From positions 1 through 39,877 of IMG/VR virus record IMGVR_UViG_3300028829_005954: a stretch of 39,877 nt of DNA; one strand, written 5' to 3'. The position numbers were made by a program, and so were the translations under genes. The notes below the pieces were generated by a model. It made no database searches. It worked only from the letters and a program-made list of their open reading frames with translations, and had not been told where the DNA came from. Below, in pieces: positions 5,623-30,565 of this stretch (position 1 is the first letter of the stretch; each line of letters starts with the position of its first letter). The stretch is from a virus.

Positions 5623-8495
5623 TGGCTTGGGTATTTAAAGATAAATCACCTGGAAACACAGGAAATGAATTATCATCTTCAGTTCCAGCAGCGGTATCTG
5701 CATCAGACTTCTTGGAATCATCCAGAAGGGTAGATGCTCCAGCTGAGCATGAAGATTTATACGAGAGATCACTCCAGGGAAACATTAAACACATTCACGC
5801 TAGTGTGGGGGGACAAAATGTAGGCACTACGGGAAATCCCACATTTGCAAACATCACGGTAACTAACCAGTTGAATGCTGGATCTATCATCGTGGATGCC
5901 ACTGGACAACCCAACTACTCATCCAGTATTGGAAATGGTTTGTCTGTGTTTGGAGATACCATTGATGACGTTCATTCTGTAACTGGATCTTTCAACGTCT
6001 CAGGTTCTCTAGAAGTTCAGACGCTTATGGATCTGTCGGGATCTTCTCACTACAGTATGTCTGCAGAATACTTTGAGGGTAAGGGAACATCTCTCACCAA
6101 TGCCAAAATTGATAATGCAGATCATGTTCCTGTAGATGTCTTTGAGGATACAACATCCGCATTACAGTTGCCTACGGGTTCTAGACCAACACAACCTCCT
6201 GGTCAGCGTGGTATTATGGTCGGAGGCGATCAAGGTCCATCCAACGTTAGTGACCAGATACAATTTGTCACAATCAGTACTCCTTCGAACGCAACAGACT
6301 TTGGTAATCTATCAGCTGAGAAGAAAGATCAAGGAGCTGCATCGAACGGAGTAAACGACAGAGGGATAACTTTTGGTGGTTTAGCGATAACAGATGTAAT
6401 AGAATTTAATACGATTAGCACTCCTTCTGATGCCATAGATTTTGGAAATATGTTTGAGTTTCTCCATGGAGTGGGAGGAACTTCTAACGGACCCAATGAG
6501 AGAGCCTTATTGATTGGTGGTAATGGCCAAGGACAAAAGAACACTATAGAGTTTGTCACAATTTCAACCACCGGTAATGCTAATGATTTTGGTGATACGG
6601 TTGATCCAAGACACTTAGTCGGAGCAACTAGCAATGGAGTCAACGATAGAGCGGTATACGTAGGGAATTCACCCGTCAGTACCGATATAGAATTCGTGAC
6701 AATATCCACAACTGGTAATGCAGCAAAGTTTGGAGACACTACGGCTAATTTTGATGGTCCTCGAGGGAGTTCTAATGATCTCAACGACCGCGCAGTCTTC
6801 AACAATGCAGCCACGATAGAATTCTTAGGTATATCACATGAAGGAAACACTTTAGATTTTGGCGACCGTACGGTTGCAGCAAAGCTACCATCAGGGTTCT
6901 CAAACGGAACTGATGAGAGAGGAATGTTCGCTGGAGGTACAGTGGCTCCTCTCAACGATACAATTGATTACGTGACGATCTCGACACCAGGAAACGCTAT
7001 AGACTTTGGGAACATGTTGAGCGCTACCGCGGCTGGATACGGATACAGTAATTCACCAACACAAAATTGGCCTTATGAGAACAGCCTGGATAGTATCACG
7101 TTGTTCACGTCAGGATCAGCAAGCTCTTACTCAAGCATCACGGGTTCATATCTCCACATATCAGCATCAACGCAGGGACAATCTGGTGGAGTCTACAGTG
7201 GCTCATCGGCAACTCTTTTGGAAACCATTGAATCTGGTTCACTGACAGTTTCCTCAAACACACCTCATGGAAACACTAGTGTTCATTTCATGGGAAGTGG
7301 TACCAACAATACCTCGATAGAAACCGTCAGGATAAATACTCCGGGTGATGCTACAGACTTTGGTGGTGTTCAACTACACCGTGGATATCAAAATGCTGGT
7401 CTCAGCAATGGTATTCTGCAACGGGGAATATTCGTTGGTGGAATGTATAATGACGACGTTCTTAATAAACAGATACAATACATAACAATTTCTACTCCAG
7501 GTAATGCAAACTCATTTGGTGAAGCAGGAGGTCCCGTGAATCAAGCGGGTGGCTTATCTAATGGTCCAGGTCAACGAGGTGTATACACGAGAACGCTGAA
7601 CCCTGGTCAATGTAACGGTCTTGAGTATATCACGATATCCACGCTAGGGAATGGTTTTGACTTTGGGGACCAAACAATGGAAAGAACATTAGTATCAGGT
7701 CTTTCCAATGGTGTCCACGACAGAGGAGTCTTCGCGGGAGATAAACCTTTTGTTTCTGGTCAAATGGATTTCATTACAATTTCAACTCCATCGAATGCAA
7801 GTATTTTTGGCAATCTTCGTCTACAGATGAACAAACCCGCTGCCTTTTCGAACGACACCAACGGTAGGGGTATCCTGGCCAGTGGTGGAGGTCTCAATTC
7901 AGGTATCATAAATACCATTGAGCACATCGCGATATCAACATTAGGCGACACAGCAGAGTTTGGACATTTACAAACCGGAGCAAATGATGGAGCCACTGGA
8001 GCCTCTAATGGTCGTGGTGAACGCGGAATAGCATTTGACATGAGGACCTCTAACCCAGTAGGACACCTTCCGCTCATTGAAACCATTACGATCGATAGAC
8101 CAAGTGACGCTGTGACGTTTGGGAATTGTGTCGACACTACACCCAATGTAAGTTCAGCAACAAGCGACGGAGCAACCTTTTATCCTCAAGCTGCATACCC
8201 ATCCATGAGATTTTCTGTAGATTTAGCTCACATGAAAGCAAATGCGTCCGGAAGTGCTAATTTTCAATCCGGAGGATTATTCACGATACCGATCATCACT
8301 TCAGCCAGTACGGCTCAAAGTGGTTCCAATTCTTTCGTGAGGGGAGCCGAAGGAGCGACCGGTAGGACTGGTATCTTTGAGGCATGGACCGGACTAGTCC
8401 CACAGAGGGTAAATGTACCATCAGGTTCATCACCACAATTTTTATCATTCAGGCTAGATCTGGCTCTAGTGCACAGAACGCATCAATGTCAATAG
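5622..8495 (+). CDS. Tail fibre/adhesin, N-terminal part (two six-repeat propellers); probably continues after a frame change
   Basis: A 957-residue frame starts at the ATG overlapping the previous stop (TAATG). Residues 1-190 are a fibre N-terminus and shaft (MAWVFKDKSPGNTGNE, then SGS-rich stretches and an FEGKGTSLTNA module). Residues about 194-483 and 550-852 are two blocks of six FVTIS repeats. After the second block the frame runs through a Ser-rich linker to about 8445. It then becomes atypical (RLDLALVHRTHQCQ) and stops, while a -1 frame continues the same kind of linker (ARSGSSAQNASMSIAS). I read this as one fibre gene interrupted at a T5 run, by a real indel, an assembly error or recoding. 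If joined, the product would be about 1680 residues with four propellers. Confidence 0.8.
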   Translation: MAWVFKDKSPGNTGNELSSSVPAAVSASDFLESSRRVDAPAEHEDLYERSLQGNIKHIHASVGGQNVGTTGNPTFANITVTNQLNAGSIIVDATGQPNYSSSIGNGLSVFGDTIDDVHSVTGSFNVSGSLEVQTLMDLSGSSHYSMSAEYFEGKGTSLTNAKIDNADHVPVDVFEDTTSALQLPTGSRPTQPPGQRGIMVGGDQGPSNVSDQIQFVTISTPSNATDFGNLSAEKKDQGAASNGVNDRGITFGGLAITDVIEFNTISTPSDAIDFGNMFEFLHGVGGTSNGPNERALLIGGNGQGQKNTIEFVTISTTGNANDFGDTVDPRHLVGATSNGVNDRAVYVGNSPVSTDIEFVTISTTGNAAKFGDTTANFDGPRGSSNDLNDRAVFNNAATIEFLGISHEGNTLDFGDRTVAAKLPSGFSNGTDERGMFAGGTVAPLNDTIDYVTISTPGNAIDFGNMLSATAAGYGYSNSPTQNWPYENSLDSITLFTSGSASSYSSITGSYLHISASTQGQSGGVYSGSSATLLETIESGSLTVSSNTPHGNTSVHFMGSGTNNTSIETVRINTPGDATDFGGVQLHRGYQNAGLSNGILQRGIFVGGMYNDDVLNKQIQYITISTPGNANSFGEAGGPVNQAGGLSNGPGQRGVYTRTLNPGQCNGLEYITISTLGNGFDFGDQTMERTLVSGLSNGVHDRGVFAGDKPFVSGQMDFITISTPSNASIFGNLRLQMNKPAAFSNDTNGRGILASGGGLNSGIINTIEHIAISTLGDTAEFGHLQTGANDGATGASNGRGERGIAFDMRTSNPVGHLPLIETITIDRPSDAVTFGNCVDTTPNVSSATSDGATFYPQAAYPSMRFSVDLAHMKANASGSANFQSGGLFTIPIITSASTAQSGSNSFVRGAEGATGRTGIFEAWTGLVPQRVNVPSGSSPQFLSFRLDLALVHRTHQCQ
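6201..7070 (+). repeat. Propeller block C: six adhesin repeats
   Basis: Six repeats span 290 residues with core strands IQFVTIS, IEFNTIS, IEFVTIS, IEFVTIS, IEFLGIS and IDYVTIS. It opens with GQRGIMVGG. Several copies keep near-identical DNA around the VTIS core, which could support recombination between repeats. Confidence 0.75.
7269..8177 (+). repeat. Propeller block D: six adhesin repeats
   Basis: Six repeats span about 303 residues with core strands IETVRIN, IQYITIS, LEYITIS, MDFITIS, IEHIAIS and IETITID. The first and last units are the most diverged, as is common at the closure point of a propeller. Confidence 0.7.
8436..8449 (+). other. Probable frame-change site (T5 run) inside a fibre gene
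   Basis: The sequence reads CAATTTTTATCATT, with five T at 8439-8443. The upstream frame reads Q-F-L-S-F here and soon loses fibre character. The downstream frame reads I-F-I-I-Q-A-R-S-G-S-S. One extra T would join the frames smoothly as Q-F-F-I-I-Q-A-R-S-G. The site A TTT TTA is one base short of the classical slippery heptamer T TTT TTA. The cause could be a genuine one-base deletion, a homopolymer error, or -1 recoding. Confidence 0.5.
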
Positions 8496-10675
8496 CCTCT
8501 ACGTTTAATGTATCGGCATCATTCACGAGCGGTAGTGCGGTATCAGCATCAACTGTTGCTGCAACGCAAGTATTTGGCACAAACACGATTTATACAGGTG
8601 AATGGAAGACTATCACTTCAGGTTCTATCGTACCGGGACAGAGAGCTGTTGTTGGTAATGGTGGAAGCATTAGTATTGATTACGCCACGATAAGTACACT
8701 TGGAAACGCAATAGATTTTGGAGATGGAGTGGCTTCTCTGGATTACAGCAGAGGTCTATCCAATGGTGTCCGAGATAGAGGTTTGATCGCTGGTGGTAAG
8801 ATCACGGGAGGAGCTGATAGAACTACTATAGACTTCATAACAATTAATACTCCAGCAAATGCTATAGCTGGGTATGGTGATATTCAACACGGTGATGGGT
8901 CTAAAGGTGGTTCTCTATCAAACGGACCAGATGATCGTGGGTTGTTGTTCAGTAATGAAACAGCAACCGGTAAGATAGAATTTTTATCCTTGGTCTCACC
9001 AGGCGACGCTACTGATTTTGGAAATATGGTACATGGAGTCAGAGATGAATTCCAACATATGTCCAACGGAGTAGGGAACAGAGGAGCATATACGGGAGGC
9101 GGTCCAGCTGCACAGACCGGTATAGAGTTCGTCACGATATCATCGATAGGTGACGCTACAACCTTTGGAGATACTACGGTTGCACGTGCAGATCAACATG
9201 ATGGTGGAGGATCTAATGATCAGAACAACAGAGGAATCTTTGCTGGTGGCTCTGATAACGTCACGATAGACTTTATAACGCTGACCAGTATAGGTAACGC
9301 TATAGATTTTGGCGATCTGGCTATGGATGGTGACGACAGCTACAACTGGATGGCAACCAATGGTGTAGGAGAGAGAGCTCTTGTGGGAGCCGATGATGTA
9401 AATGAAATAGCATTCATCACTATCAACACAGCGGGTAACTCAACAAACTTTGGTGATCTCAACTCTACGAACGATGATGGTAAGTTCGCTCTATCAAATG
9501 GAGCAACACATCCTGCGGAACCAGGCTCAACACTATCCGTGGAAAGAACATTCACATCTAGTTCGATAGCTTTTGGATCCGGATCAACTATATTCAATGC
9601 GTCTTCATCACTTGATATAAATGGATTTACTGGACAGCTTTCTCAGTCTAACTTTGCCACTGGGTCTTCGATAGCACTGACGTCTCGGATTATGAACACA
9701 ACAGGTTCAGGACAGGTCTCAGCATCTATAAGTGCAGGAGCGCTCATAGACTTTTCACCCAAGACGCTACCGGGTGAACGAGGTTTACTGGTATCATCAG
9801 ACAGTCCAGGCAACGATACTATTGGCTTTATAACAATTAGTACGCTTGGAAATGCAGCTCTCTTTGGAGAGGTTTCTGTAGCAGCCGTTCTCAAACCCGG
9901 AGGTTCAAACGGAACTGGAGGTAGATTTGTTAAGGGAATTGGAGGCGCAAGTGGAGATGGAAATTTAAGCAATGAATTTTTCACAATAAGTACGTGTGGT
10001 AATGCAGTTCATTTTGGTTACGCTACTCATGATCGACAATATAACTCAGCAGCCACTAACGGAACGGATCAACGCTTGGTGGTCTGTGCCACAAGAAATA
10101 ATGAGAATGTTGAATTCTTGACCATTTCAACTTTAGGGAACTCTCTATTGAGTGGATTTGATACGTCTATATTCACACCTTCTAAGTCTACTAATGGAGT
10201 AGATCAAGGTGGAGCAACGTCTAATGGGAGAAACGGTAGAGCGGTATGGACCAGTCAATTAAATGGAGGAACAGACGCTGTCCATACAATGTTTTATATG
10301 TCAATTCTCTCAGGAGGTGACTCAAAAACATTTGGTACTCTTACGGGTGCTCCTAATTTTTCTGGAGCTCTGAGTAATGACGTAGATGATCGAGCAGTAT
10401 TTCATCACCAAAATAGTAATATTATGGATTACATCACGATATCAACTCCAATGAATGCTGTAGATTTTGGCGACAATACGGGTAATGGAGGCTCTTGTGT
10501 GGGTGTGAGTAATGGAATTAATCAACGAGGTATAGTATATCAACATGATACCCTAATTATAAATTACATAACAGTATCTACACCAAGCAATGCTGTTGAG
10601 TTTGGTGAGCAATTAGCCGCGGTGGGAGTATCAGATCAATTTGGAGGACAAGGCGGTACTGATTCAGCTTTGTAA
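8486..10675 (+). CDS. Tail fibre/adhesin, C-terminal part (two six-repeat propellers)
   Basis: This frame is open from before 8384. The first ATG that gives a fibre-like start is at 8486 (MSIASTFNVSASF), overlapping the upstream stop by 10 bases, with no clear ribosome site. It contains a short SGS-rich linker, two blocks of six FVTIS repeats and a 10-residue Gly-rich tail (GGQGGTDSAL). Unlike the two fibre starts at 232 and 5622, it has no N-terminal attachment-like region. It is therefore more likely the C-terminal half of the 5622 gene than a separate fibre. Translational coupling from the overlapping stop is the alternative. Confidence 0.7.
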   Translation: MSIASTFNVSASFTSGSAVSASTVAATQVFGTNTIYTGEWKTITSGSIVPGQRAVVGNGGSISIDYATISTLGNAIDFGDGVASLDYSRGLSNGVRDRGLIAGGKITGGADRTTIDFITINTPANAIAGYGDIQHGDGSKGGSLSNGPDDRGLLFSNETATGKIEFLSLVSPGDATDFGNMVHGVRDEFQHMSNGVGNRGAYTGGGPAAQTGIEFVTISSIGDATTFGDTTVARADQHDGGGSNDQNNRGIFAGGSDNVTIDFITLTSIGNAIDFGDLAMDGDDSYNWMATNGVGERALVGADDVNEIAFITINTAGNSTNFGDLNSTNDDGKFALSNGATHPAEPGSTLSVERTFTSSSIAFGSGSTIFNASSSLDINGFTGQLSQSNFATGSSIALTSRIMNTTGSGQVSASISAGALIDFSPKTLPGERGLLVSSDSPGNDTIGFITISTLGNAALFGEVSVAAVLKPGGSNGTGGRFVKGIGGASGDGNLSNEFFTISTCGNAVHFGYATHDRQYNSAATNGTDQRLVVCATRNNENVEFLTISTLGNSLLSGFDTSIFTPSKSTNGVDQGGATSNGRNGRAVWTSQLNGGTDAVHTMFYMSILSGGDSKTFGTLTGAPNFSGALSNDVDDRAVFHHQNSNIMDYITISTPMNAVDFGDNTGNGGSCVGVSNGINQRGIVYQHDTLIINYITVSTPSNAVEFGEQLAAVGVSDQFGGQGGTDSAL
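8636..9526 (+). repeat. Propeller block E: six adhesin repeats
   Basis: Six repeats span 297 residues with core strands IDYATIS, IDFITIN, IEFLSLV, IEFVTIS, IDFITLT and IAFITIN. It opens with GQRAVVGNGG and ends with LSNGATHPAEPG. Confidence 0.75.
9773..10654 (+). repeat. Propeller block F: six adhesin repeats
   Basis: Six repeats span about 294 residues with core strands IGFITIS, NEFFTIS, VEFLTIS, MFYMS, MDYITIS and INYITVS. Units 3 and 4 are the most degenerate of all the repeats, yet the count of six is kept. Confidence 0.7.
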
Positions 10676-12920: not shown

Positions 12921-15900
12921 ATGAACCAATTTATACAAGAGATAATCAAACCTTTACTAAAAGAAGATGAGCAGATCACTAATGTGGTAGGAGTGTATGC
13001 GGGCAGATTTCAACCATTTGGTAAACATCACCTAGCCACGTACAAGTGGTTATCTAAACAATTCAAAGATTCATATATAGCTACATCGGACAAGTCTGGC
13101 TCAGCAAAACATCCATTATCATTTAGGGAAAAGAAAAAACATATGATAAAAATGGGTATACCTGCAAACAAAATAGTGAAAGAAAAGAGTCCTTACATAG
13201 CTAATAATATTTTAAAAAAATATGATCCCAAAACAACAGCTGTGGTTTATATATTTGGACAAAAAGATGCTGGCAGATTAATGTCAGGAAAATATTTTAG
13301 AGATTATAAGAAAGAAAAGAGCAATCTACAGGGCTATCCAGAACAAGGTTATATATCGGTAGCGCCTCACGTATCAGTAAAGGTGGGAGGCAAAGAATTA
13401 AGCGGAACTACTATTAGAAATATGCTTGGTTCTAAGTCTATGGAAGATAGTAAGAAAAGAAAACTATTCAAACAACTATTTGGATACTACGACGACAAAG
13501 CCATGGAATTATTTACAAAAAGATTTGTTAATGAGTCTTTAATGGAAATGGGTATGACTAGTGGATATCCCGATCAGAAAGAACTCGATGATTATATGAA
13601 AAAGGTTGATAAGAACAGAAGCAAAACTGATTCCAATAAAGAATATGTATTTGAACCCGTTAATGAAGGCGTTGATACTGACGAAGTAGCAGGGTTCATG
13701 GTATATCATTTAGACGAGACTGGAAAGAAGGAATATTTGTTGCTGAGGGATAGTACATATTGGGGACCACCAAAGGGACACTTACGAAAAGGAGAAACTC
13801 CACTTCAGGGAGCAACCAGGGAAACTTATGAAGAGACTGGTATAACAATTTCCAATACTATTAAAAATTTTGAGTTTATCTATACTGTAAACTTTGGTAC
13901 ATCTAAGCAAAAAGATATTACAATGTACTTGGGTAAGACAAATAGCAAGAATGTTAAGTTGTCGCACGAGCATAGTGAATATGTGTGGGTAGATCGAGAT
14001 CAAGCAATATCAATGATGAATCAAGAAAACGCAGTTGATATGTTTAATTCTATAGAATCATTGGATATGAACGAATCTATCTCGGTACCAATAGAGGTAG
14101 GAGATACTGTCTTAGGGGGTAGGTTTAAGAATAAACCAATCGTTGTTAAGGATATAGGAAAGAATGAAAAAGGTGATATTACAATTAACGGAAGACCTCT
14201 TTTAAAGTATAGAATAGTATCAAAGTCAGATATAGAAGAATTTGTAATCAAAACAAATATTATTGAATCTTCATTTACGCCAAATACAGCTGGGGGTATA
14301 GTAGATGATGGACCAAGATATTGGTATGGAAATCAAAATACATATCGCAAATCAGCTGAGCGAGAAGCTGCTAAGCTGGGATATAGGGTAGTAAATTATA
14401 TAGTACCTGATATGGAATTTGAAGAACACGATACCTACTATCCAAATGGACCTACCGGAGCAGTTTCATACTTTCCTGCGGGTTTGGTTGGAGCCAAGGC
14501 TGGTACCAATATACTAGCTGATCTAAAAGGTAAGCCCGCATTTAATAAGTGGTTACAAAACATTAACAGAAGTATAGTGAGACTAGGATGGAATCTTATA
14601 GATTTTATTTCAGCTGATGATTCAATCAAACAGTCTTCAAAAGAACCAATCAAGTCAACAAATCCAAAGGTTGACCAACCTGAACCAACGGAACCAAAAG
14701 ATGAAAAGGACCAACATAACAAGATGAGTGTAGTAGAAGAACAATTATTTACTAAGAAATGGTGGAAAGACATTCTCACCGAGGGTGGCGCTTATGGACA
14801 CATGGCACATCCATTTGATGATATGGATCTCACTTTTGGAGACCTAAGAGCTATTATTGAAAATGGATTACAGGGTACTCTTGATCGGGAAGATAACGTG
14901 ACGGAAAAATTAGATGGTCAAAACTTAATGATAAGTTGGAAGAATGGTAAGTTAATAGCTGCAAGGAACAAAGGACATTTGAAAAATGCAGGTAAAACAG
15001 CACCAGACGTCAAAGGCATTCAGACAATGTTCAAAGGTAGAGGAGATATAGAGAATGCATTTGTATTTGCCATGAAGGATCTCCAAAAGGCTATAGGGAA
15101 ATTGTCAGAAAAACAAAGAACCAAGATATTTCAAAACGGTAGTTCTTTTATGAATCTTGAAGTAATGTGGCCCAAATCAGCAAATGTTGTAAATTACGAC
15201 AAGGCTGAAATAGTTTTTCATGGAGCACTGAGGTATAATGATGCTGGTAGCCCTACAGGAAATGTACCGGATAGTGCAAGAGCATTGGAGGGTATGATAC
15301 GTCAAGTTAATCAAAACGTACAAAAACATTATAAGATATCCAAGCCTAATTTTCTCAAGGTTCCAAAGAGTCAAAATTTTGGAAAGAGACAATCATACTA
15401 CAATTCCAAGGTATCTAAGCTGCAAACCAAGTATTCTCTAAAGGATGCAGATACGTTAGCTCTGTATCATCAACGTTATTGGGAAACATTTATACAACAA
15501 GCAGAAAAGAAGTATTCTTCACGTTTAAATGATATGACATTTAGAGGTCTAGTTCGGAGATGGGCTTTTGGTGATAAGTCATTTAAGATACCGGATATCA
15601 AAAAGGCACTGAGTGATAGTCCAGAATTTTTGAATTGGGCACTAGGATTTGATAAAAACGATCATGCCGCTACAATAAAAAGTAATATGAAACCATTTGA
15701 GATGTTATTCTTTCAACTTGGAGCAGAAATATTAAAAAATATAAAAGGATTTACAGCAGCAAATCCATCAGCTTCTGTTCAAAGAATGCAAAAGGGGTTA
15801 GATAAAGCTATAAAGGACATCCAAAAGGGAGATGACGTCAAGAAGATAAAATTAGTAAAAAATCAATTAGAGAAGTTATCTGCTATAGGAGGACCGGAAT

Positions 15901-16013
15901 CAATAGTACCCTCTGAAGGTCTAGTATTTAAATATAAAGGTAAAGTATATAAGTTTACTGGAGCATTTGCACCAGTGAATCAAATACTTGGAGCACTAAA
16001 ATTTAGCCGATAA
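12921..16013 (+). CDS. Multidomain enzyme: NMN-adenylyltransferase-like + Ap4A-type Nudix hydrolase + ATP-ligase-like nucleotidyltransferase
   Basis: 1030 residues. Residues about 20-200 form a nucleotidylyltransferase domain: VGVYAGRFQPFGKHH is a variant of the NadM GRFQPFHxGH motif, and SGTTIRNML matches its C-terminal ISTxxxR-like motif. Residues about 255-385 are a Nudix domain with a perfect box from G286 to I308 (E292, R300, E301, E304, E305). WGPPKGH and LSHEHSEYVW point to the Ap4A hydrolase branch. Residues 386-445 are a small beta domain, 450-620 an unassigned region with a Pro/Lys linker. Residues 622-1030 resemble an ATP-dependent ligase: K663-L-D-G (motif I lysine), NLEVMW (E747) and E999-GLVFK with VYKF (motifs IV/V). 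All three enzyme domains handle AMP groups. Glu-Gly or Glu-Ser sites in the linkers resemble prohead-protease sites. The physiological substrate is unknown. Confidence 0.8.
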   Translation: MNQFIQEIIKPLLKEDEQITNVVGVYAGRFQPFGKHHLATYKWLSKQFKDSYIATSDKSGSAKHPLSFREKKKHMIKMGIPANKIVKEKSPYIANNILKKYDPKTTAVVYIFGQKDAGRLMSGKYFRDYKKEKSNLQGYPEQGYISVAPHVSVKVGGKELSGTTIRNMLGSKSMEDSKKRKLFKQLFGYYDDKAMELFTKRFVNESLMEMGMTSGYPDQKELDDYMKKVDKNRSKTDSNKEYVFEPVNEGVDTDEVAGFMVYHLDETGKKEYLLLRDSTYWGPPKGHLRKGETPLQGATRETYEETGITISNTIKNFEFIYTVNFGTSKQKDITMYLGKTNSKNVKLSHEHSEYVWVDRDQAISMMNQENAVDMFNSIESLDMNESISVPIEVGDTVLGGRFKNKPIVVKDIGKNEKGDITINGRPLLKYRIVSKSDIEEFVIKTNIIESSFTPNTAGGIVDDGPRYWYGNQNTYRKSAEREAAKLGYRVVNYIVPDMEFEEHDTYYPNGPTGAVSYFPAGLVGAKAGTNILADLKGKPAFNKWLQNINRSIVRLGWNLIDFISADDSIKQSSKEPIKSTNPKVDQPEPTEPKDEKDQHNKMSVVEEQLFTKKWWKDILTEGGAYGHMAHPFDDMDLTFGDLRAIIENGLQGTLDREDNVTEKLDGQNLMISWKNGKLIAARNKGHLKNAGKTAPDVKGIQTMFKGRGDIENAFVFAMKDLQKAIGKLSEKQRTKIFQNGSSFMNLEVMWPKSANVVNYDKAEIVFHGALRYNDAGSPTGNVPDSARALEGMIRQVNQNVQKHYKISKPNFLKVPKSQNFGKRQSYYNSKVSKLQTKYSLKDADTLALYHQRYWETFIQQAEKKYSSRLNDMTFRGLVRRWAFGDKSFKIPDIKKALSDSPEFLNWALGFDKNDHAATIKSNMKPFEMLFFQLGAEILKNIKGFTAANPSASVQRMQKGLDKAIKDIQKGDDVKKIKLVKNQLEKLSAIGGPESIVPSEGLVFKYKGKVYKFTGAFAPVNQILGALKFSR

Positions 16014-21852: not shown

Positions 21853-22221
21853 ATGGCAAGATATGGAGTAGGAGGCGAAAGCGTAGATGATCCAAGAAAA
21901 TCATATCCAAAACCCATACCAGTAAAATCATTTGGTCAGGCCAAGGCTGTACCAGTAACCAAAATAGCTCATAGAGCATCTCATGTAATAGTTAATACTA
22001 GTGGTTCATTTAACTTTTTATACGAGACTACATGTTCTGAAGGTTCGTTAAGTGGAGGAGTAGAGGGTGGTGGAGAAACTTACGTGCCGGCAATAACAGT
22101 ACATGGAGATGCGGAACCAATTAGATTAGATATTAATCCAGTAGCTTGGAGTGGTAGTCGTCGTGATGGGGACCTTGATGACGCTAATGCAGTTACTTTT
22201 GTTTATAGAGGAGGCTTATAA
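21853..22221 (+). CDS. Small beta-rich protein, unknown function
   Basis: 122 residues with a clear AGGAG ribosome site at 21842-21846. The N-terminal 35 residues are polar and Pro-rich (MARYGVGGESVDDPRKSYPKP). The remainder looks beta-rich with Gly-rich turns (VIVNTSGSFNFLYETT, SLSGGVEGGGETYVP, ITVHGDAEPIRLDINPVAW). It has no signal peptide or membrane helix. It ends at the TAA overlapping the gp21 ATG (TAATG). A small virion or head protein is plausible from composition and position. I do not recognise the family. Confidence 0.55.
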   Translation: MARYGVGGESVDDPRKSYPKPIPVKSFGQAKAVPVTKIAHRASHVIVNTSGSFNFLYETTCSEGSLSGGVEGGGETYVPAITVHGDAEPIRLDINPVAWSGSRRDGDLDDANAVTFVYRGGL

Positions 22222-22823
22222 TGAACAAACAATTATTAGTAGATGTGATTAATTTTGATGTATCTCCTACAGCTATAAACGAATCCATTAACAAGAACAA
22301 TGGAAAATTAATCGTACAAGGTATTTTACAACGTGCAGGAGCTAAAAATCAAAACGGTAGAATCTACCCTAGAGATATTTTAATGAGAGAGGCAGAGCAG
22401 TATTCAAGTACTCAAATCAAAGAACGAAGAGCCCTTGGTGAATTAGATCATCCGGATAGCTCGGTGGTCAATTTACAAAACGCATCCCATAACATAACAG
22501 AAATGCATTGGAATGGTGATGATCTATTAGGCACGGTTGAGGTCTTGAGCACACCAAGTGGTAACATTTTGAAAGAATTATTCAAGTCAGGAATCAAGTT
22601 GGGTATATCAAGTAGAGGTCTTGGATCTGTACAAGAAATGCATGAGGATAATGCTGTGGAAGTACAAGATGATTTTGAATTGATAGCGTTTGATTTTGTA
22701 TCTAATCCGTCTACTCATGGAGCTTTTATGTTTCCTATGAATGAAGGCGTTGATAAAACAAAAACAACAAACAAGTGGAACAAGGTTGAAACAATCATTA
22801 ATGATATTATGAGAGGAGTTTAG
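22221..22823 (+). CDS. 21: Prohead core serine protease (gp21-like)
   Basis: 200 residues. This protease degrades the scaffold and trims capsid proteins during head maturation. Family motifs are clear: QRAGAKNQNGRIYPRDIL, GELDHP with H77 as the probable catalytic histidine, GISSRG (130-132) with the nucleophile serine, and LIAFDFVSNPST, the conserved C-terminal strand. Length matches T4 gp21 (212). GAGGAGG at 22208-22214 is a strong ribosome site. The C-terminal stretch FPMNEGVD (E175-G176) looks like a self-cleavage site, and the same NEGVD string occurs in a linker of the 1030-residue enzyme at 12921. Confidence 0.93.
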   Translation: MNKQLLVDVINFDVSPTAINESINKNNGKLIVQGILQRAGAKNQNGRIYPRDILMREAEQYSSTQIKERRALGELDHPDSSVVNLQNASHNITEMHWNGDDLLGTVEVLSTPSGNILKELFKSGIKLGISSRGLGSVQEMHEDNAVEVQDDFELIAFDFVSNPSTHGAFMFPMNEGVDKTKTTNKWNKVETIINDIMRGV

Positions 22824-24120: not shown

Positions 24121-24609
24121 ATGAAAAAGTTAAAAACCCTATTGTCTGAGGTTTTTGAAGAAAATCAGGAACGGATTGACGGTAGAGCTGTTAGCAAACA
24201 AGTCTCGGAGTATGGTCTTGTTGGTAAGAAACTATACGGTGAGCATAATATTATGGAGATAGCGGAGCAATTGGTCAAGATGGCAGAATCTGCACAACAA
24301 CACATAGTAACGGAAACTGATGATTGGTTTGATAAGGTTAGTGTGAACCGTAACATGAAATCTATGACCGGGATGGTAAAGGAATTCAAGTCCACGGCAA
24401 AAGATCATAAAGCACTATCTGAAAGATTAGTGGCTCTATATGAGGATATGGGTGGAATACTGAACAGATATTACGACATTAGAGAAGAAATGGATCCAGT
24501 AGGTAAGGAAGATGGCGACATCGACAATGACGGAGACACAGACTCATCCGATGAATATCTAAAGAACCGTAGAGATACAATTTCTAAAGCAATAGATAAG
24601 GCAAAGTGA
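24121..24609 (+). CDS. Helical protein with DxDxDG calcium-type loop, candidate internal head protein
   Basis: 162 residues after an AGGAGAG ribosome site. The start [16 protein letters not shown] is a charged amphipathic helix like those of neighbouring proteins. The body is helical ([38 protein letters not shown]). Near the C-terminus D133-G-D... provides DIDNDGDTD, an EF-hand or dockerin-like calcium loop (D133, D135, D137, G138), followed by [11 protein letters not shown]. No family is recognised. The TGA overlaps the next GTG. A packaged or scaffold-associated role is inferred from the N-terminal motif and position. Confidence 0.6.
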
Positions 24610-24911: not shown

Positions 24912-25258
24912 TGAAAAACTTAGCAGATTTGATCTCCAAGATAGAAACAGGTAGAGTGTACACTGATAGAGATCGACCACCATTCAAAACAGAAGCTGAG
25001 CACATAGGAGCTGAACTACAAGAGCAAGATTCGGTAGCAGATAATGATATGTCTGCTGCAAATACTTTGAAGCCTCGTTTGTTACAAGCATACAATGTAA
25101 TATCCGCAAATATAAAAGACATAGAAAAAACATTAAGTGGATTCAACTCACCAGGTCTCAAAGCAGCTTTTTTAGATTCAATAAAGAAATCAATCAAAGG
25201 AAATAAGTTTGATATGAGAGCAGCTGAAAAACATTTATTTAAATACTACAAAAGATAA
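24911..25258 (+). CDS. Small helical protein, unknown function
   Basis: 115 residues, starting at the TAATG overlap with the preceding gene. The N-terminus [19 protein letters not shown] is again a short amphipathic helix. It is followed by a polar region and two predicted helices (NTLKPRLLQAYNVISANIKDIEKTL and LKAAFLDSIKKSIKG). The C-terminus is basic (KHLFKYYKR). The IETG segment offers an IxE|G-like processing site after residue 12. The TAA overlaps the next ATG. Its role is unknown; it may be another internal head protein. Confidence 0.55.
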   Translation: MKNLADLISKIETGRVYTDRDRPPFKTEAEHIGAELQEQDSVADNDMSAANTLKPRLLQAYNVISANIKDIEKTLSGFNSPGLKAAFLDSIKKSIKGNKFDMRAAEKHLFKYYKR

Positions 25259-25533
25259 TGAAGATAACAAGAACAGAATTAAAAGAATTAGTTAAAGAGG
25301 TCATGTTGGAAGGCCGAATAGTATCATTGGAAATGCCAAAGGACAATTCATCTCAAAGAAAAATAATGTCTATTTTGACCAAACTTAAAGTACCAAAGGA
25401 TGGTACATCCAGCAAAGAAGGATATAACATAGTCAAAAAAAAAGGTAAACAAGTAATTGAAATTCCTACAAAACACGTTGATGATGTTATTGAACAAATG
25501 ATAAAAATGAACGTATCAGTACGTTCTATTTAG
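25258..25533 (+). CDS. Small protein with N-terminal charged-helix tag, unknown function
   Basis: 91 residues. The first 19 residues (MKITRTELKELVKEVMLEG) are the clearest copy of the recurrent tag in this cassette and end in a possible LEG cleavage point. The rest is a compact alpha/beta sequence (RKIMSILTKLKVPKDG, YNIVKKKGKQVIEIPTKHVDDVIEQMIKMNVSV), reminiscent of small two-layer domains. It shares 11 of 15 residues with residues 63-77 of the 22989 protein. Function is unknown. Tight overlaps on both sides point to a shared transcript. Confidence 0.6.
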   Translation: MKITRTELKELVKEVMLEGRIVSLEMPKDNSSQRKIMSILTKLKVPKDGTSSKEGYNIVKKKGKQVIEIPTKHVDDVIEQMIKMNVSVRSI

Positions 25534-25541
25534 GAGGTTAT

Positions 25542-26573
25542 ATGGCTGTAGGTTTAGACTGCGGAACATCGTTTTATATTTCAGCACGAGAAAAATCAAT
25601 TAAGAAGCAACGTAATGCTTTCTTGACGGTTGATGGGGATGCGGAACAATCCAAAAGAATGTTAAAGAGACAACGTATACCGTTTGTCGAGAAGGCAGGT
25701 AAGGTACACATAGTAGGAAAACATGCTTTCAACTATGCTCAAATATTTAGCACAGCTACACTCAGACGTCCCATGAAGGATGGTTTGCTAAATCCAACAG
25801 AAAAAGATAGTCTTCCAATCCTCAATGCTATTATTGGTGAGCTATTGGGTAAATCTAAAAAAGAAGAGGTTTGTGTATATTGTATTCCTTCTAAACCCAT
25901 AGATGTAGAGCGTGAAGTTTCATATCATGATGATGTACTGAGTACAATCATCGAGAGTTATGGATACAAAGCCCATAAAGTAGAAGAAGCAGTAGCTCTT
26001 GGATATGAGGGTTTAGTCGATAATGAACTTACTGGTGTGAGTATTTCTATGGGAGCTGGTATGTGCAACGTAGCGGTTATGTATCAAGGTATGACTGCTG
26101 TGAGCTTTGCTGTATCAAGAGGTGGAGATTGGATAGATAACAACGTGTCTATGGATACGGGAGTACCAGTGGCCAAGGTATCAAACATAAAAGAATCTTC
26201 CACACAATTAGATTTAACCAAGGGTGTCATGCAAGACATTTATGGAGAGAGTACAGAAGAATTTACAGTAATGCATGCCCTGAGATCGTATTATGGAGCT
26301 CTAGTGAATTATCTATTAGTGAATCTAAAGGCTCAGTTTGAAGGAGCAGCTAATGTTCCAAACTTTCCAAAGCCAGTACCTATAGTTATAGGAGGAGGCA
26401 CCTCTTTAGTTAAAGGTTTCATTGAAGTTTTTAATGAACAATTTGATCCAGAAACATTTCCCCTAGAGGTTAGTGAGATTATACTTATAGAAGATGCTCA
26501 CACCGCAGTATCAAGAGGATGTTTAAGTGAAGCCCAACTAACAGAAGAAGATGAAGCTCAAGACAATACTTAA
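25542..26573 (+). CDS. Actin/Hsp70-superfamily ATPase (ParM/MreB-like)
   Basis: 343 residues with a strong AGGAGG site at 25532-25537. The five-part nucleotide pocket is recognisable. Phosphate 1 is VGLDCGTSFYIS (D6, G8, T9). The connect region is VEEAVALGYEGL at 148-158. A degenerate phosphate 2, GVSISMGAGMCNVAV, spans about 165-179, with the usual aspartate missing. SRGGDWIDN at 192-200 is the MreB/Hsp70 GGDxxD segment. The adenosine motif is PIVIGGGTSL at 280-289. Length fits a bacterial actin (320-350) and not full Hsp70. It may form filaments that move or position phage DNA or proheads, or act as a non-polymerising ATPase. No phage counterpart is assigned by me. The end overlaps the superoxide dismutase gene by 23 bases. 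Confidence 0.8.
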   Translation: MAVGLDCGTSFYISAREKSIKKQRNAFLTVDGDAEQSKRMLKRQRIPFVEKAGKVHIVGKHAFNYAQIFSTATLRRPMKDGLLNPTEKDSLPILNAIIGELLGKSKKEEVCVYCIPSKPIDVEREVSYHDDVLSTIIESYGYKAHKVEEAVALGYEGLVDNELTGVSISMGAGMCNVAVMYQGMTAVSFAVSRGGDWIDNNVSMDTGVPVAKVSNIKESSTQLDLTKGVMQDIYGESTEEFTVMHALRSYYGALVNYLLVNLKAQFEGAANVPNFPKPVPIVIGGGTSLVKGFIEVFNEQFDPETFPLEVSEIILIEDAHTAVSRGCLSEAQLTEEDEAQDNT

Positions 26574-27189
26574 AGAAATATTAGAATTAGATCAAACTAA
26601 GTTTAAGCTACCAAAACTAGAATATGGTATAAATGAACTCAAGCCAATTAAGTCAGTAGATTTACATTACAATAAGCACCATGGTGGGTATGTAAAAAAA
26701 TTAAACGATGCTATTGGTGATAGTAAGTATAAAGGGATGAGACTGGAAGATATTATTATACGAAGCCACTTAGATCAAAATCTAGCCGTATACAACAATG
26801 CAGCTCAACACTTCAATCATTCTTTCTTTTGGAACTTATTGAACCCAAAGCCAGAAGCTAAGGAGCCATCAGGTCCTCTAATGAAATCCATAGAAACTAA
26901 CTTTGGAAGTTATGATAATTTTAAGAAAGAGATTATAGAAAAAGGTTCCAAACATTTTGGTTCCGGATGGGTATGGGTAATTCGTAACGGCAATGAATTA
27001 AGAGTACAAGATATGCATGATGCAGATAGTCCTGTAGCAAACAGAGAATATCCCATTATGGTAATAGATTTGTGGGAGCATGCATACTACATGGATTATC
27101 AAAACGATAGGGAAAAATATTTAAAATCTATGTTTGATATTATAGATTGGTCTAAAGTTGAGGCTAACTTTAATGGATACAAGCGATGA
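26551..27189 (+). CDS. sodB: Iron superoxide dismutase with an N-terminal extension
   Basis: 212 residues. The enzyme converts superoxide to H2O2 and O2. Iron ligands are visible: H39 in DLHYNKHH, H90 in AAQHFNHSFFW, and D173/H177 in DLWEHAYYMDY. Q86 in NNAAQHFNH is the FeSOD-type glutamine. FGSGWVWV and the Tyr/Trp-rich C-terminus are intact, so it should be active. Aligned to E. coli SodB, the core begins at FKLPKLEYG, leaving about 15 extra residues (MKLKTILKEILELDQ). These resemble the tag of neighbouring genes rather than a secretion signal. The start codon lies inside the actin-like gene. A virion-packaged or early-acting role against oxidative stress is inferred. Confidence 0.9.
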   Translation: MKLKTILKEILELDQTKFKLPKLEYGINELKPIKSVDLHYNKHHGGYVKKLNDAIGDSKYKGMRLEDIIIRSHLDQNLAVYNNAAQHFNHSFFWNLLNPKPEAKEPSGPLMKSIETNFGSYDNFKKEIIEKGSKHFGSGWVWVIRNGNELRVQDMHDADSPVANREYPIMVIDLWEHAYYMDYQNDREKYLKSMFDIIDWSKVEANFNGYKR

Positions 27190-27512
27190 AAAGAGTTACG
27201 GTCAAGGAAATACGCACTTGGTTGAAAACACTAGAAGAGAATCGATATAGAAGATTAGTTAATGCAGATGCCAGACGCGTAGCTTGGTTTGTAAACAATC
27301 AGTTATCTGATAACTATGATACTATGCCTAAGACTTTGAGAAAAAAATGGTCAGAGGCAAAATATGGTAAAGAGAGATATTTAGCGGAGAAGTATCTTAG
27401 AAAACTAACAGAGTCCGTATTAAAAAGAAGAATCAAAAACATACTAAAAGAGGTTATTCGTGAAGCGAAGACTACTAAAAGATCCACCGGGCTTAACAGT
27501 ACTGGTTCATAA
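27186..27512 (+). CDS. Small basic protein, unknown function
   Basis: 108 residues, with its ATG overlapping the SOD stop (ATGA). The sequence is basic and helical (VKEIRTWLKTLEENRYRRLV, DARRVAWFVNNQL, TLRKKWSEAKYGKERYLAEKY). The C-terminal part KRRIKNILKEVIREAKT is another copy of the amphipathic tag, here near the end rather than the start. The last 53 bases overlap the rpsU-like gene. No family is recognised. The arrangement could mean the tag belongs to a former gene boundary. Confidence 0.55.
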   Translation: MKRVTVKEIRTWLKTLEENRYRRLVNADARRVAWFVNNQLSDNYDTMPKTLRKKWSEAKYGKERYLAEKYLRKLTESVLKRRIKNILKEVIREAKTTKRSTGLNSTGS

Positions 27513-27663
27513 AAACAATATAGACAATGCCCTATCTAGGTTTAAAAATAAAGTAAAGGATAGTGGTTTAATGATGGAATTACGTGATAGAGCTTTCTAT
27601 GAAAAGCCTTCGGCAGCTAAGAGAAAAAAAATTAATGCTGCTAAACGTAGAAATAAAAAATAG
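27460..27663 (+). CDS. rpsU: Ribosomal protein bS21 (phage-encoded)
   Basis: 67 residues from a GTG at 27460, preceded by AGAGG at 27449-27453. The family core is clear: VHKNNIDNALSRFKNKVK corresponds to the bS21 ALRRFKR helix. GLMMELRDRAFYEKPS includes the hallmark FYEKP (46-50), and a Lys/Arg tail KRKKINAAKRRNKK follows. bS21 sits on the 30S platform near the anti-Shine-Dalgarno site, and a phage copy can replace the host one. Known phages with bS21 include marine ones. Expression next to capsid genes, rather than among early genes, suggests late synthesis. The extra N-terminal residues MKRRLLKDPPGL differ from typical bS21. Confidence 0.85.
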   Translation: MKRRLLKDPPGLTVLVHKNNIDNALSRFKNKVKDSGLMMELRDRAFYEKPSAAKRKKINAAKRRNKK

Positions 27664-27801: not shown

Positions 27802-28863
27802 ATGAGTGATCTTTTAAAAGAAGCTATTGCAGATGCTAAAGCTGTTCGTGAAACAGCCTTACGTAATGCAAAAATGGCTTTAGAAGAAGCATTCACACCT
27901 CAACTGAAGTCTATGTTATCCGCTAAACTTTCTGAAGAAGAAGATTCTGAAGAAGATGAAATGGAAAACGAAACATGGCACGAAGAAGTCGAAGACGATG
28001 TCGAAGACGAAGGTATGCATAAAGAAGAAATGGAAGATGAAGTCGAAGACGAAGGCATGCACAAAGAAGCAATGCACGGTGAAGACGAAGCAATGCATCC
28101 AGAAGATGAAGCTATGCATCCGGAAGATGAAGCTATGCATCCGGAAGACGAAGCAATGCATCCAGAAGATGAAGCTATGCATCCGGAAGACGAAGGCATG
28201 GACATGGAAGGTGAAGAGTCTGATGAGTTGGATCTAGAATCTATCATTAAAGAGTTAGAGCTAGAGATCAATGAAGAAGACGACGCATATCCAGACAACG
28301 TTGAAGGTCATAAGGACCCTGATCATATACAGGATCTTTCTGAAGAGGAAGAGACTGATGATGAAGAAGAGTCTAAGGAAGAGGTTTATGAAGTAGAACT
28401 TAAAGAAGAGGATGATGCATATCCAGACAATGTAGAGGGACACAAAGATTCAAATCACGTCGTTGACATGAAAGAAGAACTAAGTCGTACCAAAGCTGAG
28501 TTGGATGAGCATAAGGAAGCAATTACCTACCTCAAGGATAAGATCCACGAAGTAAATATCCTGAATGCTAAGTTGTTATTTACTAACAAACTGTTCAAGG
28601 AGTTTGCACTAGATAACCAACAGAAGATGAGAGTAGTAGAAACATTTGATAGAGCACAAACAACTAGAGAAATCAAACTTGTTTATAGCACATTGAGTGA
28701 AAACTATTCCGCTAAACCTGTTGCTAAAAAGCGCAAGCCCAAAATTAACGAGTCTGCAAGTGCAAAGACGGGATCTACAAGACCTTCTAAGCAATCACGT
28801 AAAGTGATTACTGAAGAACAAGTTGTAGCTGATCGTTTTCGTAAACTTGCTAATATTAAGTAA
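27802..28863 (+). CDS. 22: Prohead scaffold/core protein (gp22-like)
   Basis: 353 residues after AGGAGAG at 27790-27796. The scaffold nucleates the prohead and is destroyed by gp21. The call rests on position directly before the capsid gene, the very acidic composition and the C-terminal helical segment (LKDKIHEVNILNAKLLFTNKLFKEF...QQKMRVVETFDRAQT), a familiar gp22 family pattern. The N-terminus MSDLLKEAIADAKAVRETAL is helical. Residues 91-132 are six tandem MHxEDE[AG] heptads. DDAYPDNVEGHKD occurs twice (160-172 and 204-216). The C-terminus is basic (KKRKPKINES...). Length is above T4 gp22 (269) because of the repeats. Many LxE/IxE sites suit proteolysis. Confidence 0.85.
   Translation: MSDLLKEAIADAKAVRETALRNAKMALEEAFTPQLKSMLSAKLSEEEDSEEDEMENETWHEEVEDDVEDEGMHKEEMEDEVEDEGMHKEAMHGEDEAMHPEDEAMHPEDEAMHPEDEAMHPEDEAMHPEDEGMDMEGEESDELDLESIIKELELEINEEDDAYPDNVEGHKDPDHIQDLSEEEETDDEEESKEEVYEVELKEEDDAYPDNVEGHKDSNHVVDMKEELSRTKAELDEHKEAITYLKDKIHEVNILNAKLLFTNKLFKEFALDNQQKMRVVETFDRAQTTREIKLVYSTLSENYSAKPVAKKRKPKINESASAKTGSTRPSKQSRKVITEEQVVADRFRKLANIK
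28072..28197 (+). repeat. Six tandem 21-bp repeats in the scaffold gene (MHPEDEA heptads)
   Basis: Six in-frame units of 21 bases encode MHGEDEA, four MHPEDEA and MHPEDEG. They differ only at a few third positions (GAT/GAC, GCA/GCT, CCA/CCG). This suggests recent slippage or unequal recombination, and copy number may vary between relatives. Confidence 0.85.
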
Positions 28864-28873
28864 GGAGACTTAG

Positions 28874-30565
28874 ATGTCAAATTATATCAACGAAGCCCTT
28901 TTGGGTGCTTCAAACTACAAGGTACAGAAGAAAGAAGCTGAAAAACTTGTACAGAAGTGGGATCGTACTGGATTACTAGACGGTCTTGAAGGTGATTTCA
29001 AGAAGGGTGGAATGGCACAGTTGCTAGAAAACCAAGCTCGTGAACTCATCAAAGAAGCTTCAGCTACCAGCCCTAATGCTGGTGTTGCGGGTTCTTACAA
29101 TGGCGACGAGGAATGGTCCGGAGTTGCTTTACCACTTGTACGTAGGATTTTTGGTGAAATAGCTGCACAGGAATTTGTTTCAGTACAGCCTATGAACCTT
29201 CCTTCTGGACTAGTATTCTACCTTGATTTCCAATACGGAAATACAAGAGCTGGTAATGCTGCAGGTTCATCATTACAAGGTAAAACAGGTAAATTCTCAC
29301 CTTCAGGTAGTTCTGCTCCATTTGGTGCAGACGATGCTGTTGGAGGATCAGGTCTTTATGGAGCTGGAAGCTATGGATATTCATTAGCTACAGGTTCAGA
29401 AGTCATTGGTGCGCCAGCTGTTACATTAGCTACTTGGAAAGATGTAAACTTTAATGGTGAATTATCTTCATCTGTTAATGCAGGTAAAATCTTCAAAGTT
29501 GTTGAAGCTTTAACCGCAACAGATATTGATAAGTTAGCTATTAGAGCTGCCAACTTTATCTCAGGTGGACAATCAGCAGAAAGACCACACGGTGCAAACA
29601 TAGGTCCTGCAAAGAATATCAATAGATTCTTTCCAGAACTTACATCGATTAGTGGTGATGAAGGCGAAGCTGGATCCGTAACATTTGTTGTATCTGCATC
29701 AGTTGCAGGCGATGTTACTGGAGAAGGTAGTGGCTTAGAAATACAATATCCAAAACTAAACACAGAAGCTAGCAGAGGTGATTTTGAAGATCGCATCGGT
29801 GATGCTACTGCTAATTCACTAGACATACCTCAAGTAGACATTGAGTTGAAGTCCAGAGCGATTGTTGCGAAAACTCGTAAGTTAAAAGCTGTATGGACAC
29901 CTGAGTTGGCTCAAGACTTAAATGCATATCATTCAGTTGATGCAGAAGCTGAGTTGACATCAATGTTAACAGAGTATGTGAGTATGGAAATTGACCTAGA
30001 GGTCATGGACATGCTTATCAGTGATGCCCAAACCATTGATTACTGGTCACTAGTTGCTGGTAATGATTACAATGGAGTTGGTGGATTTACTAATACAACT
30101 TTCTATGGTACACGATTTGAGTGGTTCCAGACATTAGTTGCTAAAATCCAAAAAGTCTCTAATGAGATTCATAAATTGACACTACGTGGTGGTGCAAACT
30201 TTGTTGTTTGTGGTCCTCAAGTAGCAACAGTTCTCGAATCCATTCCAGGCTACATGACTGATACAGATGGATCTAAGAATCAGTTCGCTATGGGCGTTCA
30301 ACAGATAGGTTCACTTGCAAACAGGTTTACTGTTTACAAGAATCCTTATATGGATGAGAATACAATTCTGTTGGGTTATCGTGGTAGTAACTTCCTAGAA
30401 ACAGGTGCTGTGTATGCTCCTTACGTACCGTTAATCATGACACCATTAGTGTATGATCCAAGTGATTTTACACCAAGAAAAGGTATTATGACTAGATACG
30501 CTAAGAAGATGATCAGACCAGAGTTCTACGGTAAGATCTACGTCGATTCATTAGACCAGTTATAA
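28874..30565 (+). CDS. 23: Major capsid protein precursor (gp23-like)
   Basis: 563 residues after AAGGAG at 28862-28867. It forms the hexamer shell and is trimmed by gp21. The probable cleavage point is LIKE|AS at E61|A62, the same place as T4 gp23 (after residue 65). The conserved HK97-fold start follows (VALPLVRRIFGEIAAQEFVSVQPMN, then LPSGLVFYLDFQYG). The C-terminal part matches the family: NFVVCGPQVATVLESIPGY, YAPYVPLIMTPLVYDPSDFTP and GIMTRYAKKMI. Length is slightly above T4 gp23 (521), owing to a Gly/Ser-rich insertion around residues 130-180 and an acidic stretch near 250-290. An 11-bp hairpin follows the stop. Confidence 0.96.
   Translation: MSNYINEALLGASNYKVQKKEAEKLVQKWDRTGLLDGLEGDFKKGGMAQLLENQARELIKEASATSPNAGVAGSYNGDEEWSGVALPLVRRIFGEIAAQEFVSVQPMNLPSGLVFYLDFQYGNTRAGNAAGSSLQGKTGKFSPSGSSAPFGADDAVGGSGLYGAGSYGYSLATGSEVIGAPAVTLATWKDVNFNGELSSSVNAGKIFKVVEALTATDIDKLAIRAANFISGGQSAERPHGANIGPAKNINRFFPELTSISGDEGEAGSVTFVVSASVAGDVTGEGSGLEIQYPKLNTEASRGDFEDRIGDATANSLDIPQVDIELKSRAIVAKTRKLKAVWTPELAQDLNAYHSVDAEAELTSMLTEYVSMEIDLEVMDMLISDAQTIDYWSLVAGNDYNGVGGFTNTTFYGTRFEWFQTLVAKIQKVSNEIHKLTLRGGANFVVCGPQVATVLESIPGYMTDTDGSKNQFAMGVQQIGSLANRFTVYKNPYMDENTILLGYRGSNFLETGAVYAPYVPLIMTPLVYDPSDFTPRKGIMTRYAKKMIRPEFYGKIYVDSLDQL

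Follow-up and report, generated by a model that had tools for sequence, protein, structure and literature searches.

The window, which is the whole analysed stretch of 39,877 nucleotides from the IMG/VR virus record IMGVR_UViG_3300028829_005954, encodes a T4-like head module with terminase- and portal-type genes, an S77 protease, a gp22-like scaffold and gp23. The gp21-type prohead protease (Peptidase S77) is located at 22221..22823 on the plus strand (PF03420, 104 bits; phrog_207, head maturation protease) and the major capsid protein gp23 at 28874..30565 (+; PF07068, 256 bits). The gp22-like scaffold (27802..28863, +), which starts with MSDLLKEAIADAKAV and contains 12 [LI]xE motifs, was assigned by position, synteny and motif, as it has no Pfam or PHROG match. 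A superoxide dismutase (SOD) gene is found between the protease and the scaffold genes. In T4 the spacing of genes 21 and 22 is ~30 nt, compared to ~5 kb in the window, where the interval contains the SOD, a homologue of the actin-like protein volactin, a bS21-like protein and small ORFs with a common N-terminal tag. Two tagged neighbours are encoded at 24121..24609 (+) and, starting with MKITRTELKELVKEVMLEG, at 25258..25533 (+), and these are followed by the volactin-family actin homologue (25542..26573, +; PF25216, 239 bits), the SOD (26551..27189, +), a conserved small head-module ORF (27186..27512, +) and the bS21-like ribosomal protein (27460..27663, +; PF01165, E 3.9e-16), which adjoins the scaffold gene. 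Late expression of head genes of this kind was reported for bS21 phages of Bacteroidetes (PMC9723584).

On the basis of gp23, Flavobacterium phage immuto is among the closest isolates, with 62.5% identity across 70% of the protein; others are Microcystis phage Mel-JY01 (~50%) and Rhodothermus phage RM378 (36%). No match was obtained when 21 kb of the window were compared at the nucleotide level with phage records, and our search found no virion proteome of phage immuto. Volactin is known from Haloferax volcanii; the homologue is present in the head module of all close relatives with the region covered, and in the phage-record collection its family (PF25216) occurs in two uncultured records only. 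Repeated NG..DRG...GG / ISTxGNA..FGD units characterize three large proteins encoded at 232-10675 of the window.

The SOD ORF encodes 212 amino acids with the SOD domain covering approximately residues 17-205. Both SOD families of Pfam are matched above their cut-offs, i.e., PF00081 at residues 17-97 (68.1 bits, cut-off 27) and PF02777 at residues 106-205 (120.5 bits, cut-off 20.9). The metal ligands are complete with three His and one Asp (H39, H90, D173, H177), the second-sphere Gln is at the Fe-type position (Q86), the Mn-type Gln position is occupied by A158, and the gateway residue is Y47. The AlphaFold2 model has a mean pLDDT of 87.8, shows a short helix at residues 6-11 and superposes on FeSOD structures with a TM-score of ~0.85 (Foldseek E ~1e-17). 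The original prediction of a complete FeSOD with four iron ligands and the FeSOD Gln is borne out by these domains and residues, and its expectation of activity is supported, as a prediction, by the intact fold, ligands and Fe-type Gln; the protein should be an intact, active Fe-type SOD. As ATG 26551 is the sole ATG, GTG or TTG in frame upstream of the SOD domain, the N-terminal extension (residues 1 to ~14-17) is real. The gene overlaps both neighbours: its 5' 23 nt are shared with the 3' end of the volactin-family gene, by which the first seven SOD codons are doubly constrained, and its stop TGA overlaps the start ATG of the small head-module ORF. The codons for Glu9 and Glu12 both lie beyond the 23-nt overlap.

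The first 14 residues, MKLKTILKEILELD (26551..26592, +), constitute a capsid-targeting-like extension. A tag motif trained on the N-termini of close relatives, with SODs excluded, reads K-L-K-E-[LI]-[IL]-x-E, and on this motif the extension scores 16.3 bits, a value reached by 0/1,266 internal windows of the same proteins, 0/580 bacterial N-termini and 0/426 N-termini in more distant T4-like loci. The two tagged neighbours score 13.4 bits (24121..24609) and 12.8 bits (25258..25533), and the N-terminus of the scaffold, MSDLLKEA, itself fits the motif. In the gp21-gp23 interval of close relatives 31/91 ORFs are tagged compared to 6/102 outside (odds ratio 8.3, p 7e-7), with several of these loci being near-duplicates and some nearly redundant; the proteins bearing the tag there are otherwise unrelated. 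The SOD of the relative L085, which is 62% identical to the window SOD, retains MKLK, although its tag score is weak (7.95, p 0.02). An extension of about 15 residues matching a neighbouring tag had been proposed beforehand, and the tag scores confirm it with ~14 residues common to neighbouring head-module genes.

Searching IMG/VR with a DNA pattern for MIKLK[DE]LLxE resulted in 133 matches, 121 of them without an in-frame ATG upstream, and T4-like structural genes were found near 61/119 of the loci. Pfam analysis of 100 tagged proteins, which share their N-terminus by construction as they were selected by the tag, revealed SOD, RimK/ATP-grasp, zeta-toxin-like kinase and NUDIX domains and a weak HAD match, while most have no known domain. 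Candidate injected enzymes carrying the tag are a zeta-toxin-like kinase (L267, 13338-14114, minus strand), a RimK-type ATP-grasp enzyme (L019, 4362-5372, +) and a NUDIX-type protein (L314, 2778-3179, +). Within the window, a 1030-aa protein with nucleotidyltransferase-like, NUDIX and further regions (12921..16013, +) starts with MNQFIQEIIKPLLKE, scores 12.7 bits and is a candidate for further cargo; its NUDIX match is above the cut-off with 53.7 bits and its CTP_transf_like match is slightly under the cut-off. It shows [LI]xE at several linkers, such as LLKE/D and ILTE/G (the slash marking a putative cut), and is possibly another processed cargo. In phage immuto (L373, 4730-6030) a cobalamin adenosyltransferase and its neighbour share a different leader, F.L..FL.ENKLT.N...LKE, possibly another type of tag.

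The T4 protease gp21 cleaves after L/I-x-E, and the 10-residue capsid targeting sequence (CTS) of T4 suffices to target even foreign proteins into the head (PMC9026906). Two candidate prohead-protease sites that fit this motif are present in the SOD tag, i.e., L7-K8-E9 (26569..26577, +) and I10-L11-E12 (26578..26586, +), the latter six residues ahead of F18 of the SOD domain; the suggestion that LKE and ILE may serve as such sites therefore agrees with the published motif. The L085 SOD carries LIE-8. In the gp23 of the window a propeptide site is predicted at I59-K60-E61/A62 (29048..29056, +) as the counterpart of FLTE/A in T4, and in four jumbo phages this site reads LINE/A. The motif is short and [LI]xE occurs in ~13% of internal 17-residue windows; furthermore, P1' at the candidate SOD sites is Ile or Leu, compared to Ala in T4. 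The helical K/L/E pattern of the tag would also suit an amphipathic helix that localizes proteins to another phage structure, such as a membrane, a replication site or the filament of the adjacent volactin, which adjoins in nearly all close relatives with both flanks read. This explanation is regarded as improbable, as tagged genes cluster near gp21-gp23, the scaffold N-terminus shares the motif, and the tag occurs in many IMG/VR contigs selected regardless of volactin.

Several close relatives have lost the SOD. In L005 and L006, whose gp23 is 98% identical to that of the window, the sequence between volactin and the next gene reads MKLKTILKQILHFGANFNGYKK followed by a stop, i.e., the first and the last SOD residues are joined. 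In L007 26 C-terminal SOD residues are left, ending in IFNIIDWNRVTENFEGYKR before the stop, and the scar in L008 reads MKLKQVDWDVVITNFRSIL up to its stop. Shuffling of the scars gave 0/2,000 for both ends in L005 and L006, 0/2,000 for the C-terminus in L007 and 1/2,000 for the C-terminus in L008 as compared with the L085 SOD. As these SOD-less relatives retain scars of the SOD ends, the comparison of the sequences leads to the conclusion that the SOD is ancestral in the clade and that internal deletions removed it on at least three occasions; as a cargo it would be optional, repeatedly lost in related phages. The overlap of the SOD gene with both neighbours may explain by translational coupling why the reading frames were kept. 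The same overlap raises the question if the tag is an accident of overprinting, since its first 23 nt represent the +1 frame of the acidic volactin C-terminus, which tends to yield Met-Lys-rich peptides, and since the overlap is real and 23 nt long in both the window and L085. However, the overlap covers neither of the Glu codons nor the second half of the tag, other tagged genes have no volactin overlap, and in the deletion scars of L005 and L006 the codons for both candidate P1 residues are altered, with Gln replacing Glu9 and His replacing Glu12, so that overprinting appears highly improbable as the origin of the tag.

In the SOD tree the window SOD and the L085 SOD share a long stem of 1.2 changes per site within the Fe-type half, with no close cellular relative in the tree. 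The phylogeny had been expected to reveal the donor host; owing to the long stem and the missing close cellular relative the donor is not identifiable. PHROGs contains no SOD family, and our literature search found no paper on a packaged phage SOD. Many SOD matches in records labelled as phage were set aside, as they look like probable host DNA (short unannotated records with bacterial-type neighbours). Two phage-coded Fe/Mn-type SODs are those of PA5oct and Vibrio phage 2.275.O. For PA5oct EST35_0261 (L380, 1444-1992), an SOD-family protein annotated as hypothetical, the GenBank record notes ESI-MS/MS and is silent on whether the virion is meant.

It might be argued that the window SOD is an ordinary auxiliary metabolic enzyme acting in the host cytoplasm late in infection, with the extension being a neutral or expression-related leader. 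Such a role would be in line with the dispensability of the SOD in the clade and with the positions of the other phage SODs outside structural modules, by topoisomerase genes in Vibrio phage 2.275.O and by heat-shock/ClpS genes in PA5oct. The position in the gp21-gp22 interval, the common tag and the L/I-x-E motifs stand against it, as does a second, unrelated SOD lineage that shows the same signature flanking the domain on both sides; overall, we consider a purely metabolic role unlikely.

This second family comprises many phage SODs in IMG/VR that reside within proteins of 230-911 aa in jumbo T4-like phages and have the Mn-type Gln. They group in the opposite half of the tree, a 100/98 branch separating the lineages, and the Mn-type Gln together with this placement requires two acquisitions. 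At positions -9 to -7 ahead of the SOD domain [LI]xE is present in 28/31 linker-nonredundant proteins (30/31 if V is allowed) compared to 1.3% per position elsewhere; the linkers share ancestry, so this represents conservation and not 31 independent events. After the SOD domain [LIV]xE is found in 25/25 proteins that extend past it. An internal translation start as a reason for the conserved E/M junction was rejected, as an SD-like core was found in 0/30 and the conserved I/L codons do not resemble an SD sequence; the core test is weak alone, since just 26/185 real starts there have one. S77 and gp23 genes occur together on four large contigs of this family, and neither was found in the remaining large contigs, several of which are clearly fragments; within the flanks that were retrieved, 68/78 loci show a tail-sheath gene and 33/78 a gp13/14-like neck gene. 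The SOD polyproteins L086-L163 (e.g., L129, 7515-9977) show an upstream HEWxH-motif domain, the SOD and then a GQD...QVKP region resembling a nuclease core, and none has a solid Pfam match outside the SOD. At the level of sequence, two SOD origins converge on one processing signature.

Taken together, the window SOD is probably, although with modest confidence, a head cargo enzyme of a T4-like aquatic phage that is targeted and trimmed like the T4 internal proteins and, after that, either injected or retained alongside the DNA. The tag, as a short amphipathic helix, would bring the SOD, together with the gp22 scaffold, into the core of the prohead; at prohead maturation the gp21-type protease would cut after Glu9 and/or Glu12, and the trimmed SOD of ordinary size (~200 residues) would stay within the capsid. 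It could then travel with the DNA, be ejected into the next host and lower superoxide early in infection. Alternatively, it may protect the packaged DNA and proteins; by analogy to T4 internal proteins and to the SOD packaged in virions of PBCV-1, injection seems somewhat more likely. More tentatively, phages may have converted bacterial SODs into capsid cargo at least twice independently, as a short-tagged Fe-type enzyme and as a Mn-type polyprotein with sites on both sides, each freed by the prohead protease inside the head and injected along with the genome to keep superoxide in check as infection begins, with the same tag marking further injected enzymes, among them ATP-grasp, zeta-like kinase and NUDIX proteins; this broader scheme is quite conceivable, yet we stop short of calling it probable. 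If true, oxidative chemistry would be contested during the first minutes of an infection by phage, and injected effectors of uncultured aquatic phages could be predicted, on sequence alone, by means of a readable tag. The convergence of candidate cutting sites next to two unrelated SODs makes the cargo idea directly testable. The ancestral SOD with its repeated losses and scars and the second, independently acquired SOD family go beyond what had been predicted originally.

The window SOD resembles FeSODs of the SodB type (E. coli 1isa, Plasmodium 2awp) in fold, ligands and the Fe-type second-sphere Gln; unlike these, it represents a viral lineage without a close cellular relative and carries an N-terminal tag. 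The SODs of PA5oct and Vibrio phage 2.275.O are ~26% identical to it, have no such tag and are encoded outside the head module. PBCV-1, a chlorovirus, packages the late-expressed Cu/Zn SOD A245R in its virion (PMC7019647). A245R is virus-coded, is predicted to lower superoxide during infection and is missing in some relatives, in likeness to the window SOD; it belongs to the Cu/Zn family and serves a virus of a eukaryotic host, whereas the window SOD is of the Fe/Mn family (PF00081/PF02777). In SPN3US and phiKZ head proteins have long propeptides that are cut by a gp21-like protease (PMC5694885); packaged proteins are trimmed there after a short x-E motif, a precedent on which to model the second SOD family with its long helical propeptides, although the motifs are A-x-E/S-x-E and no SOD is among the proteins. 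A further close parallel is offered by the internal head proteins IPI-IPIII and Alt of T4, whose CTS is cut by gp21 (PMC9026906, PMC9958956). The tag sequence is unrelated to MKTYQEFIAE of T4, with no detectable homology to the T4 CTS (on the tag profile IPII scores 2.6 and IPIII -2.5 bits), so it is a functional analogue and not a homologue; moreover, the proposed cargo is an SOD, and the candidate cargo genes lie between gp21 and gp22, whereas ipII and ipIII of T4 are near the lysozyme gene. Like the T4 internal proteins, the window SOD has a short N-terminal L/I-x-E candidate propeptide, within the 10-20 residues typical of a T4-type CTS and common to other putative head-core proteins, and a gp21-type S77 protease, a gp22-like scaffold (by synteny and motif only) and a gp23 with its own L/I-x-E propeptide are encoded in one module, in a phage that, like T4, appears to place unrelated cargo bodies behind a common tag.
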